From positions 1 through 21,376 of the IMG/VR virus record IMGVR_UViG_3300027754_000505: 21,376 nucleotides of DNA. One strand, written 5' to 3'. Shown here piece by piece: positions 1,996 through 6,107 of this stretch. This DNA comes from a virus. The translations under genes and the position numbers were made by a program. The number at the start of each line of letters is the position of its first letter. Position 1 is the first letter of the stretch. The notes below the pieces were generated by a model. That model had not been told where the DNA came from. It did not search any database and saw only the letters and a program-made list of their open reading frames with translations.

Positions 1996-3083
1996 GCAAA
2001 ATCCAACGAGGTTTGAGCTGTACGTTTCTTTTGAAGTTTCCCATATTCAGGGTTTAACTCGCACCCAATGTATTGCCTACCAAGGTCTTGGGCTACTTGT
2101 GCAGTAGTTCCTGACCCCATAAATGGGTCTAAAACAATCCCTCCAAGTGGTGCGCCAGCAAGGATGCAGGGTTCAATCAATTCTGTTGGGAAAACGGCAA
2201 AATGTGACCCAGAGTAAGGTTTTGGGTTAACTGTCCAAACACTTCTTTTGTTTTTCAGTTCAGATACTTCTGTTGGCAAAGCATCTGGGTGTTCATTTCC
2301 AGTTGATACTTTTCCATCTACATTTCTCATTGCTTTTTTGGGAGAGTTGAAGCTTCTTTGCTCTCCAGCATGAATAGACTTTTCTTTTATTGACTCGCTA
2401 TCGTAGTAATATTTTGAAGATTTGCTCAACAAAAAGATGTACTCATGCGATTTAGTGCATCTGTCTTGCACCGACTCTGGCATTGGGTTTGGTTTACTCC
2501 AAATGATGTCTTGACGCAAATACCAACCATCTGCCCTCAAAGCAAAAGCAAGCATCCAAGGTATACCAATCAGGTCTTTTGTTTTCAAACCCGTATCGTG
2601 TAACTTGTCTAATTTTCTATCATTGGCTGGCATATTGTTTCTGCCTTCACGTTGATATTCTGGGCTGGCTCTAGCAAAGCCATTTGTATTGCAATAGCTG
2701 TCACCAATGTTTACCCACAAAGTTCCATCGTCTTCCAGCACATCCCACACACATCGGAATACCTCAACCATTGCTTTAATGTATTCCTCTGGGGTTTCCT
2801 CAAGTCCAATTTGCTTATCCTCTCGGACAGAACCACATTTTTTGCATAAATCTTTGTATTGTTTTTTGTATCCTTCTTGGTTTCTGTCGGCTCGTTGTCC
2901 TCCATGTTTATTTTCGCTTTCAACATGGTCGCAATTAACATCCCCACCTTCCCACTTAGCAGTCCCATAGTCTCGCAACCCGTAATATGGTGGGCTTGTT
3001 ATGCAAGTTTGAGCCTTAACGCCTTGTGATGCCCATTTACGCATTGTTTCTCGGCAATCACCAAATTCAATCTTGTTCATCAT
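1992..3083 (-). CDS. Beta-class site-specific DNA methyltransferase (N4-cytosine or N6-adenine)
   Basis: This 363-residue protein transfers a methyl group from S-adenosylmethionine to an amino group of a DNA base. The catalytic motif IV TSPPYY is at residues 29-34, and the AdoMet-binding motif I DPFMGSGTT is at 319-327, followed by 'YIGCELNPEY'. The order IV before I defines the beta class. The central region (about 180-300) would hold target recognition. An unusual insert at about 48-84 carries C51-x-H53 and C80-x-x-C83, which may bind zinc. No restriction endonuclease is adjacent, so it is probably an orphan phage enzyme protecting DNA from host restriction or marking replication. The start has ATG ATG in tandem after AAGGA; the first overlaps the upstream stop. 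Confidence 0.92.
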   Translation of the reverse strand: MMNKIEFGDCRETMRKWASQGVKAQTCITSPPYYGLRDYGTAKWEGGDVNCDHVESENKHGGQRADRNQEGYKKQYKDLCKKCGSVREDKQIGLEETPEEYIKAMVEVFRCVWDVLEDDGTLWVNIGDSYCNTNGFARASPEYQREGRNNMPANDRKLDKLHDTGLKTKDLIGIPWMLAFALRADGWYLRQDIIWSKPNPMPESVQDRCTKSHEYIFLLSKSSKYYYDSESIKEKSIHAGEQRSFNSPKKAMRNVDGKVSTGNEHPDALPTEVSELKNKRSVWTVNPKPYSGSHFAVFPTELIEPCILAGAPLGGIVLDPFMGSGTTAQVAQDLGRQYIGCELNPEYGKLQKKRTAQTSLDFA

Positions 3084-3436
3084 TTATTCCTTAATTGAGC
3101 CATTGCTTGCCTAATGTGTTCAGGCATGGGTACGGCTTTTTTGTTGTCAGCATCAATCTTGGCAAGGGCAGGGTCAATTTGCACTTTGATCCCGAATGAT
3201 TCAGGAATCTCAGCCCCATCCCATCGTTGTTGGTTCAGATAGACCAAAGGTGCGGGAATAAAAGCACCATCGTCTTTTCTCCAAGCATCGGTTGTTTTCA
3301 TCCACTCTATGTGCTTGATGATTTGGTCTGCACAAGTCTCACAGTAAAACTTCTTCCACTTAACAAGGCAAGTAGCCTTACCGCCTTTTCTTATTGACTT
3401 AGGCCATGTTGACCAGAATCTCTCAAAGTTTTCCAT
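3080..3436 (-). CDS. Putative phage replication protein (helicase-loader / replisome-organiser C-terminal type)
   Basis: This is a 118-residue soluble protein. The opening 'FERFWSTWPKSIRKGGKA' and the later 'GAFIPAPLVYLNQQRWDG' (about residues 57-74) match the C-terminal module of many phage replication proteins of the O/DnaD-like type. These read 'FW..YP.K..K..A...W' and end in 'FIP.P..WLN..RW'. In larger relatives this module follows a DNA-binding winged helix; here it stands alone, so a partner protein may supply DNA binding. The start has an AAAGGG-type site 8 bases upstream. It follows the long structured region and is coupled to the methyltransferase by ATGA. Replication function is inferred from the family resemblance. 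Confidence 0.65.
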   Translation of the reverse strand: MENFERFWSTWPKSIRKGGKATCLVKWKKFYCETCADQIIKHIEWMKTTDAWRKDDGAFIPAPLVYLNQQRWDGAEIPESFGIKVQIDPALAKIDADNKKAVPMPEHIRQAMAQLRNK

Positions 3437-3539
3437 ATACGCCCTTTGTTTAAAACCTGTACCTTAAACTCATTTAAGTTCCCTATGTACTAGGTTTTAC
3501 CCTTACTCCCATATATGCTAGTTCAGTTCAGTCGGGTTC

Positions 3540-4030
3540 TAATTGGCAAATACTCACCTAATCCTGAGTAAACAAGATTAGTGAGTACCTATGCTAGTTT
3601 CAGACAAGTCTGGGACGAACATTGGGCTATGCCTTACTGATTGCATAGCTTGCAGGATTACACGCCTCAGAGCGTCCTATCTGCCCGTTCCTGCATCCCA
3701 ATTAAGGGTCACTCATGTGGGCTTGGCTTGGGATAGTTCCCCCGTTGCCTCTCAACACAGTTACGGCGGCCTTACGAGCGGTCTACCTGTGTCCAGTCTC
3801 TAATGGCTAGGTTCTGAGTCCTACTTTACTTGCAGCTAACTTTGGTCTGCAATCCTTACAGTCCCCAAAAGCAAAAACCCCTCAAATAACTCTGGTGGTC
3901 TTGGCTCTTGGCGAGAGCAACAGCAAACGAATGACGCTAATCAAAAGTTCACTTGCCGTCTGACAAGACCACCACAGATATCTGAAGGGTTTAACTAATT
4001 AGCGTCACTCGTCTGATGCCACTCAGACGA
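3540..4030 (-). ncRNA. Large structured non-coding RNA or leader, unassigned family
   Basis: No credible gene fills 3437-4071, yet the segment is dense in complementary arms. On the minus strand, starting about 6-7 bases after a TATAAT box, I find the following helices by eye (plus coordinates). 4009-4016/4023-4030 is 8 bp. 3998-4007/3932-3941 is 10 bp. 3983-3992/3875-3884 is 10 bp with one G-U. 3964-3974/3893-3903 is 11 bp. Further pairs are 3904-3908/3914-3918, 3830-3835/3847-3852, 3755-3760/3787-3792, 3690-3695/3651-3656, 3626-3632/3643-3649, and 3551-3563/3576-3587 with one bulge. A 7-bp long-range pair 3540-3546/3698-3704 may close the distal part. The 3' end is not visible; reading through to the replication gene at 3436 is possible. 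It does not match tRNA, tmRNA, RNase P or group II intron signatures that I can recognise. Confidence 0.7.
3867..4030 (-). other. 5' pseudoknot domain ending in a U-rich tract (possible attenuator)
   Basis: Within the structured region, the 10-bp helix 3998-4007/3932-3941 interleaves with two nested helices, 3983-3992/3875-3884 and 3964-3974/3893-3903. That topology is a pseudoknot. On the minus strand the last helix arm is followed by TTTGCTTTT (3867-3875 region), as expected for a terminator or attenuator. The motif CGTCTGA occurs both in the first hairpin (4010-4016) and inside the pseudoknot loop (3957-3963), giving a possible alternative pairing. These are base-pairing observations; switching is inference. 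Confidence 0.55.
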
Positions 4031-4035
4031 TTTGG

Positions 4036-4062
4036 ATTATACACAGTTCTTTCATGTGTCAA
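4036..4062 (-). promoter_or_regulatory. Sigma-70 type promoter reading into the structured RNA
   Basis: On the minus strand a perfect TTGACA (4057-4062) and a perfect TATAAT (4036-4041) are separated by 15 bases, slightly shorter than the optimum of 17. The expected start, at about 4029-4030, coincides with the first base of the first RNA hairpin. The arms ACACA (4041-4045) and TGTGT (4055-4059) form an inverted repeat between the two boxes and could be an operator. The promoter begins about 10 bases after the stop of the winged-helix gene. Confidence 0.75.
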
Positions 4063-4071
4063 GAAGTTTTT

Positions 4072-4434
4072 TCAAATAAATTGATTATTTGTAATTTCAT
4101 TTGTTGGTTTTCTGCCAAACAAACGAACAGCTTGGTTGTTCATAGAAGCATATTCAGCCTTAGTAAAGATACCTTTAGCGTTCCTGATGTCAAACGGGGT
4201 TAGTAGATCACGAGGCTCATCTACCTTTTCAGCCTCAATCATGTGTGGCTCTAACGTGTACTGAGAAACCCAAGACCGACCCATCTTAATTTTCCCGATT
4301 TTTAGCTTCTTCTTGTATTGCATCTTTGTGCAACAAGCTGCAATGGATAGTCTAGGTATGCCTGTTAAATCCTCTATTTGGTAGGAAGTAAGTGGGCCAT
4401 TTTGTAATGCTCTGATTACTGATTCTTGTGTCAT
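4072..4434 (-). CDS. Winged-helix DNA-binding protein, candidate early regulator
   Basis: This is a 120-residue protein. Residues about 3-60 read as a winged helix: helix 'ESVIRALQNGPLTSYQIEDLTG', a second recognition-type helix at about 25-40 ('PRLSIAACCTKMQYKKK'), then a basic wing 'KIGKIKMGRSWVSQYTL'. The C-terminal 60 residues are polar and not recognised. I place the start at 4434 (ATGA overlap with the upstream 59-codon gene) rather than further upstream. The longer open frame would replace a real overlapping gene and gives an unlikely cysteine-rich N-terminus. It sits directly upstream of the strong promoter of the structured RNA, so autoregulation or control of that promoter is plausible but unproven. 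Confidence 0.7.
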   Translation of the reverse strand: MTQESVIRALQNGPLTSYQIEDLTGIPRLSIAACCTKMQYKKKLKIGKIKMGRSWVSQYTLEPHMIEAEKVDEPRDLLTPFDIRNAKGIFTKAEYASMNNQAVRLFGRKPTNEITNNQFI

Positions 4435-4610
4435 TTGTAAAGGTTCTCCAGGTTGATTGGTCGGTTTAGGTGAAGTTCTAGCGTTCTGGCAAGCAAAGCT
4501 GTTACAGCCGCAATGGAATCCTCTGGCTCGGTTGTATAAGCATCTGCCATTGTTTGGGCGTACCCACACAAGGCTTCAGCGCATCTTTTTTCAAGGATTT
4601 CAGTTTTCAT
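4431..4610 (-). CDS. Small hypothetical protein, first gene of the minus-strand early operon
   Basis: This is a 59-residue helical protein (starts MKTEILEKRCAEAL; 'SIAAVTALLARTLELHL' at about 32-48) with no membrane segment. Its TGA overlaps the ATG of the winged-helix gene (ATGA, 4431-4434), the same coupling seen in the rest of the operon, which is the main reason to believe it. No Shine-Dalgarno sequence precedes the ATG (the 15 upstream minus-strand bases are pyrimidine-rich), so initiation may be leaderless or weak. An internal ATG at codon 21 also lacks a site. Function unknown. Confidence 0.55.
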   Translation of the reverse strand: MKTEILEKRCAEALCGYAQTMADAYTTEPEDSIAAVTALLARTLELHLNRPINLENLYK

Positions 4611-5489: not shown

Positions 5490-6107
5490 ATGGGTTCAGT
5501 ACATAAAAAGTTAATGGCAGCAAGAATAAGTCTGCAAGAAGCACCACTAAAAAAGTCAGGCCACAACAAGTTTGCGGGATATTCTTACTTTGAATTGGGT
5601 GACTTTATCCCAACCATTACCGAGATTTTTTATAATATCGGTTTATGTGGCGTAGTGTCGTTTGGCAAGGAGTTGGCTAGTCTGACCATCACAGACACAG
5701 AAGACGGCTCAGAGATCGTTCTGACAAGCCCTATGGCTGAAGCCAATCTAAAGGGATGCCATCCAATCCAGAACCTTGGTGCAGTAGAAACTTACACCAG
5801 GCGTTATCTCTGGGTGTCAGCAATGGAGATCGTAGAACACGATGCCCTAGACTCTTCTGCACCATTAAAAGAAGATAAGGTCATCATTAGCCCTACTCAA
5901 GGCGCACAAGATAATATTCCTCCAGAGGAATTACAGTACTTGCAAGAGATGGCAGTCGATTTGATTGCCACTTGTGAGCAAGGTGACCCCAAGGCAGCTT
6001 GGGATAAGCTGGAAGGAGAGAACCTAGATGCTGAACAGAAAATAGCATTGTGGACACTTCTTCCCAGTAAAGTAAGAGCCGCTTTAAAGAAAGCAAAGGA
6101 AATGTAA
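5490..6107 (+). CDS. erf: ERF-family single-strand DNA annealing protein
   Basis: This is a 205-residue protein of the ERF superfamily, which pairs complementary single strands during phage recombination and genome circularisation or repair. The conserved core is visible. Residues about 28-43 carry 'FAGYSYFELGDFIPTI', and about 94-107 carry 'QNLGAVETYTRRYL', the G-A-x-x-T-Y-x-x-R-Y signature of the family. The C-terminal third (about 125-205) is variable and helical, as usual. I place the start at 5490, after AAAGGAG with a 5-base gap, not at an ATG 21 bases upstream that lies before that site. The next gene starts on its last stop base. The SSB-like protein downstream is a natural partner. 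Confidence 0.88.
   Translation: MGSVHKKLMAARISLQEAPLKKSGHNKFAGYSYFELGDFIPTITEIFYNIGLCGVVSFGKELASLTITDTEDGSEIVLTSPMAEANLKGCHPIQNLGAVETYTRRYLWVSAMEIVEHDALDSSAPLKEDKVIISPTQGAQDNIPPEELQYLQEMAVDLIATCEQGDPKAAWDKLEGENLDAEQKIALWTLLPSKVRAALKKAKEM

Follow-up and report, generated by a model that had tools for sequence, protein, structure and literature searches.

We identified an abundant class of structured RNA that is found at no fewer than 272 distinct viral loci, i.e. at least 272, and was previously unnoticed in freshwater phages. The class itself, i.e. its sequence, architecture and modularity, is well supported; an earlier description was not found in the open-licence literature. Its role is more tentative: we assign a probability of roughly 0.4 to the reading that it is a two-module phage noncoding RNA that would control, and perhaps help to start, the replication of its own genome. 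The representative analysed here stems from a virus record in IMG/VR, 21,376 bases long, which was analysed over its full length and is called “the window” below, and in which the RNA is coded on the minus strand. It occupies a noncoding stretch on that strand between an early gene (4072-4569), possibly encoding an HTH protein (weak PHROG matches only), and the gene for a replication protein of 118 aa (3080-3436). The first-pass annotation had proposed one RNA of about 600 nt. A minus-strand structured RNA was indeed recovered, but it consists of two exchangeable modules totalling ~530 nt; the last 70 nt (3506-3437) vary between relatives, and the conserved RNA stops near 3506.

The early gene stops ~9 nt before the promoter of the RNA (4036-4062, minus strand). 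Its −35 box (TTGACA, 4062-4057) and −10 box (TATAAT, 4041-4036) are both perfect and are separated by a 15-nt spacer, so that a standard promoter scan, which allows spacers of 16-18 nt only, missed it. Of 183 distinct homologues, 152 have a promoter with at least 9 of 12 matching positions ahead of module 1, compared to 37 of 549 control windows, and among the homologues with a promoter the −10 box is mostly at the same distance from module 1. The minus-strand promoter that had been noticed at the start of the RNA is thus conserved. An inverted repeat, TTGACACA ... TGTGTACAA, is located inside the promoter in the window and in many relatives (such as L007), and may serve the early regulator encoded upstream as an operator. 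A GC-skew switch is seen near 4 kb of the window, where it is confounded by gene direction.

Folding of the whole 614 nt yielded z values of −4.2 for the RNA strand and −3.7 for the opposite strand. The many helices described earlier were borne out, with the qualifications that the folding signal resides in the first 168 nt only (z −7.3 compared to shuffled sequence, versus −0.9 for the remainder alone) and that the covarying pairs include a pseudoknot, which a search for simple hairpins would miss. These first nucleotides contain module 1, type A (m1A; 3870-4033, minus strand), a structured RNA of ~164 nt with a terminator-like helix at its end. The covariance model R1 matches it with 170 bits (E 1.6e-36), the window being one of the 36 sequences from which the model was built. 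The 5′ hairpin P1 (4010-4029; CGUCUGA-GUGGCA-UCAGACG) is nearly invariant among the 36 homologues. It is followed by the hypervariable tag a (3998-4006; GACGCUAAU), by the 5′ strand of helix b (3964-3992) and by hairpin c (3919-3960; helix 4 of the covariation analysis), the loop of which bears tag a′ (3933-3941; AUUAGCGUC). Alignment and covariation further delineate a small hairpin d (3904-3918; GCUCUCGCCAAGAGC) and the 3′ strand of helix b (3873-3903), which leads into a U-tract. Helix b is a G+C-rich stem of 26 bp, with changes on both sides in 11 of its 26 pairs; it covaries in m1A and ends with CCC(C)/GGGG followed by UUUUU. Module m1A therefore has the stable stem plus U-tract of a putative intrinsic terminator or attenuator. 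The 9-bp pairing of a and a′ crosses helix b and hence forms a pseudoknot.

To quantify covariation, the alignment of the 36 distinct module 1 homologues (A1) was compared to shuffled controls. The fraction of paired cells was 98.6% (90.8% shuffled), the number of double-change cells was 150 (36 shuffled), and the covariation score was 0.259 (0.111 shuffled), a value reached in 0 of 500 shuffles. For the pseudoknot alone the difference was larger, i.e. 97.1% versus 69.5% paired cells and a score of 0.637 versus 0.143. The tags pair to 98% with their own partner, and to 67% when they are swapped between homologues. Tag columns are 2.5 times as variable as the other columns; 19 distinct tag pairs occur in the alignment set, and 23 distinct tags in 112 loci. 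Matches to a tag elsewhere in its own phage genome showed no excess (7 versus 10.6 expected). A trans target inside the phage genome was therefore rejected, and the partner of the tag is most likely the RNA itself. On the opposite strand the same pairs of module 1 form in 88.9% of the cells, compared to 98.6% on the RNA strand, because G-U pairs are kept on the latter, and this fixes the sense of the RNA.

Module 2 of the window is a core of type A, ~360 nt in length (3506-3866, minus strand; nhmmer match 3864-3506). Among 12 phages, its mean nucleotide identity is 96.2%, compared to 81.3% for module 1 and 85.9% for the replication gene. Folded alone, core A does not exceed chance (z −0.9), and covariation was not found in it, the sequences being too alike for the test. 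In place of one 6-nt loop, relatives carry GAAA or GCAA tetraloops. That core A acts as RNA is thus supported by the conservation, by the location behind the promoter and by the sibling cores, and its structure is uncertain. The siblings covary, with 50 double-change cells versus 7.7 for core B, 26 versus 6.2 for core C, and 49 versus 14 for core D. Cores D and B share a common 5′ part (CCGTACTCC..CACG) and then diverge (L193, L231, L241, L245), so that the cores appear to be composite. Some copies of core D contain inserts, and in L241, which has two tRNA genes (3799-3879 and 5904-6044), the nearer one lies ~0.1 kb past the core D RNA. Dozens of core D loci lack a recognisable module 1 (e.g. 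L359, L363, L353, L384), and a further, third type may be present in some of these. A module-1-like RNA outside both profiles, with promoter-like and U-tract ends, precedes core B in L250 (2260-2509) and in L252.

The suggestion that this is a new class of phage noncoding RNA has held up. Module 1 and the sibling cores B, C and D covary well above background, and a search of Rfam 15 revealed no family at the gathering score and nothing credible up to an E-value of 10. GOLLD, ROOL, OLE and HEARO were thereby rejected, as none of them reached its gathering score or occurred among the matches up to E 10. A protein-coding gene was rejected since no frame is open across all homologues of any module; of 13 homologues, nine have a frameshift in the plus-strand ORF at 3591-3803 and a tenth has an altered end of this ORF, in line with the initial impression that the segment lacks a credible gene. 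ARAGORN predicted 0 genes in the window, which excludes a tRNA or tmRNA. A self-splicing intron of group I or II was rejected as well, because no Rfam intron matched and the RNA lies between complete genes, for example directly behind the terminase or the replication gene, and has its own promoter. Likewise rejected was an origin with DnaA boxes: the motif TTWTNCACA is no more frequent in the window than chance would give (3 versus 3.7 expected), and a perfect DnaA box (TTATCCACA) within core C of some phages (L028, about 5790) is not conserved in others.

The homologues were collected from a starting set of 80 loci, obtained in a search with the neighbouring protein. Some of these loci contain the whole RNA, some the first 208 nt only, and some the promoter only; alignments showed that different conserved cores can follow the same promoter. 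Scans for patterns of individual parts, together with profile searches, distinguished module 1 types A and B and core types A to D. Each of the two module 1 types occurs with each of the four cores, which gives eight pairings; those of m1A with core D, and most of those of m1B with core D, are overlapping matches outside the automatic pairing count. Module m1B cannot be aligned to m1A, yet it follows the same plan, i.e. the loops of a 5′ hairpin and of a terminator hairpin pair with each other, and a run of Us comes after the latter. Its own tags pair over at least 7 bp in 25 of 25 sequences, compared to 21% for swapped tags.

Long viral records contain exactly one copy of m1A (20 of 20 records); weaker matches on the opposite strand are the mirror image of this single copy. 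A query of the m1B-like module plus core D had no match in plasmids. Among 50,697 GenBank phage records, MW202484.1 is the only one that matches any query tried, and part of the RNA in this sole genome is annotated as a hypothetical protein: UOF77725.1 overlaps part of m1B and core B (L106, 6421-6780) and is probably not a gene. The phages probably infect Burkholderiales, as inferred from a bacterial contig bearing the RNA (L254), which belongs to a Comamonadaceae MAG, and from the sequenced bacteria that have a relative of the replication protein, which are Burkholderiales. The family of this MAG was searched in 401 bacterial genomes, where the m1A model had no match under strict filters and without a positive control, and on this basis a prophage in the hosts was rejected; the core D query yielded one weak match of 51 nt only in the same genomes.

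Gene context was analysed for 166 loci with at least 1.5 kb of flanking sequence on each side. The RNA lies beside a shortened replication gene in 113 of these, a fraction that partly reflects the collection (several searches used the replication protein), so that the proportions are no census. It is upstream of this gene in 107 loci and downstream in six (L106, L191, L201, L219, L240, L454). In most of the other 53 loci it is upstream of a primase-helicase gene or directly after a primase gene; in about 10 it adjoins the gene for the terminase large subunit, and several others have no assigned neighbour. In another phage group the RNA is located 24-221 nt past the terminase large subunit gene (L351, L278, L265, L269, L329, L339, L391). 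As the neighbours differ between loci, the RNA is not bound to one downstream gene.

The replication-initiation protein of the window (3080-3436, minus strand) is cut to its C-terminal domain, matching positions 177-252 of the 288 of PHROG 9474 (E 1.7e-14). This “replisome organizer” domain (window 3427-3080; L107 2698-3246) had no PDB match by sequence. Relatives of the domain were scored for what precedes it. The automatic table contained 52 cases with the RNA and a short initiator, none with the RNA and a long one, 17 without the RNA and with a long one, and two without the RNA and with a short one. Both apparent exceptions were inspected: L193 does carry the RNA (m1B-like plus core D), and L182 has the N-terminal part in an ORF with a start that the table had missed. 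The corrected values are 53/0/18/0, i.e. a short initiator in 53 of 53 cases with the RNA and an N-terminal domain in 18 of 18 without it; these counts are not independent, as relatives share ancestry and separate origins are few. The N-terminal parts of the RNA-less initiators are diverse and include DUF1376 and HTH_36. Module 1 was absent from 16 entire RNA-less records, including the complete genome MW202481.1; in its complete sister genome from the same spring, MW202484.1, m1B and core B accompany a shortened initiator. Within the O-like initiator family only, the RNA is thus found where the DNA-binding domain of the initiator is absent, as would be the case for an RNA-based origin, expected where an initiator or this domain is lacking.

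Replication control could operate as follows. Transcription from the promoter would yield a short module 1 RNA when the terminator helix wins, and would otherwise continue into the core and, in most cases, on into the replication gene. Pairing of a and a′, either intramolecular or between RNA copies from one phage, would bias the decision between a stop at 3873 and continuation. The sequence does not force such a switch, since no nucleotide belongs to both the pseudoknot and helix b. One RNA contains both tag and anti-tag, so that RNA copies made by one phage can also pair with each other; this would provide a self-specific measure of genome dose, and the tag may be a sensor of dosage or timing, in the manner of the variable loops in plasmid copy-control RNAs. 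Tags that vary while keeping their self-pairing would be the expected product of selection for self-recognition among co-infecting relatives. More speculatively, the read-through core might supply what the shortened initiator is missing, namely origin recognition or priming. The extended proposal, in which the modular RNA of lytic phages takes the place of that half of the initiator which recognises the origin, is possible but doubtful; the core would mark or prime the origin and recruit the leftover helicase-loading domain, and the tag would confine the response to the own phage. Replication control is supported by the covariation of m1A, the promoter and the terminator, the same plan in the unrelated m1B, the single m1A copy per record, the mutual exclusion of the RNA and the N-terminal domain, and the replication-gene neighbours. 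The roughly 10 loci beside terminase and the several unassigned ones count against it, as do the few separate origins behind the 53/18 split and core A, with its fold at chance level and its lack of covariation.

Several of these features are also compatible with other functions. Promoter, terminator geometry and the location upstream of the replication gene in 107 of 166 loci would suit a purely cis-acting leader, with module 1 as an attenuator, possibly sensing a ligand or a protein, and the core as a 5′-UTR that controls translation or stability of the early operon. The very long leader considered in the first-pass annotation has lost support, given that some copies of the RNA lie downstream of the replication gene or beside unrelated genes, with a different next gene elsewhere; in addition, a leader leaves the self-complementary hypervariable tags and the missing protein N-terminus unexplained, and we regard it as unlikely. 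To a similar degree we doubt an autonomous phage sRNA gene (“moron”) with trans effects on the host or rival phages, in which the core would be a second RNA or a read-through form. The strong bias to replication genes and shortened initiators, the single copy per long record and the tag without a target in the phage genomes searched are at odds with it, although it would account for the own promoter and terminator, for the portability between loci, including those beside terminase, and for m1A not being found in the 401 related bacterial genomes (strict filters, no positive control).

The conservation of the self-complementary tags as pairs could also reflect a homo-oligomerising RNA like GOLLD or ROOL, in which a and a′ pair between copies to form a multimer; a variable 5′ part and a conserved 3′ part have been reported for GOLLD (PMC12286853). 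This appears quite improbable, given that the RNA matches the GOLLD, ROOL and OLE models neither in sequence nor in structure and that intramolecular pairing accounts equally well for the covariation. Two further possibilities have very little probability. A packaging RNA working with terminase would explain the ~10 loci directly before or after the large subunit gene, in contrast to most copies, which adjoin replication genes. Selection on DNA, i.e. on origin cruciforms or protein sites, would be in accord with inverted repeats being present on both strands and with origins often being palindromic, but it does not predict the better pairing on the RNA strand (98.6% versus 88.9% of cells) with its kept G-U pairs, the GNRA loops on this strand, or the fixed distance of the promoter.

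The RNA may be a device controlling how the virus starts copying itself, usually located near DNA-copying genes and often where the DNA-recognising part of the initiator is missing. The trade-off between an RNA and a protein domain raises the testable question of whether an RNA can do part of the job of an initiator in phage replication. The orthogonal, self-recognising tags and the interchangeable modules would serve as parts for RNA switches.

A precedent in favour of replication control, with an RNA taking the place of an initiator protein, has been described for the parABS mycobacteriophages Alma, LadyBird and RedRock, the prophages of which use either RepA or an initiator RNA (PMC7157519). 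In the available text of that article, which also treats the ColE1 copy-control RNA, a noncoding RNA is present in phages without the initiator protein, and both kinds occur among related phages, as in our case (PMC7157519). The same text assigns that RNA to prophage maintenance and replication, its deletion having left lytic growth unharmed, and describes different hosts and neither a tag nor a two-module plan (PMC7157519); this prophage-only role counts against replication control by the RNA described here. GOLLD and ROOL are likewise large structured phage RNAs with kissing pairs, and GOLLD combines a conserved 3′ part with a variable 5′ part. The present RNA differs in matching none of the models, in being smaller, in its internal terminator-like helix, and in the free combination of two 5′ kinds with four 3′ kinds; as a rule it is not beside tRNA islands. 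The pRNA of phi29 resembles it in having paired complementary loops that differ between phages. These loops pair different pRNA molecules with each other on the packaging motor, whereas most loci here are beside replication genes. In plasmid copy-control RNAs (ColE1 RNA I/II, pT181 attenuation, IncI/IncB pseudoknots), variable self-specific loops occur together with pseudoknots or terminators at the replication gene, and this combination recurs in the phage RNA. There a separate antisense RNA is involved, whereas here the complementary tag resides in the same RNA, which has no Rfam match. The mechanism could be a variant of RNA-based replication control.
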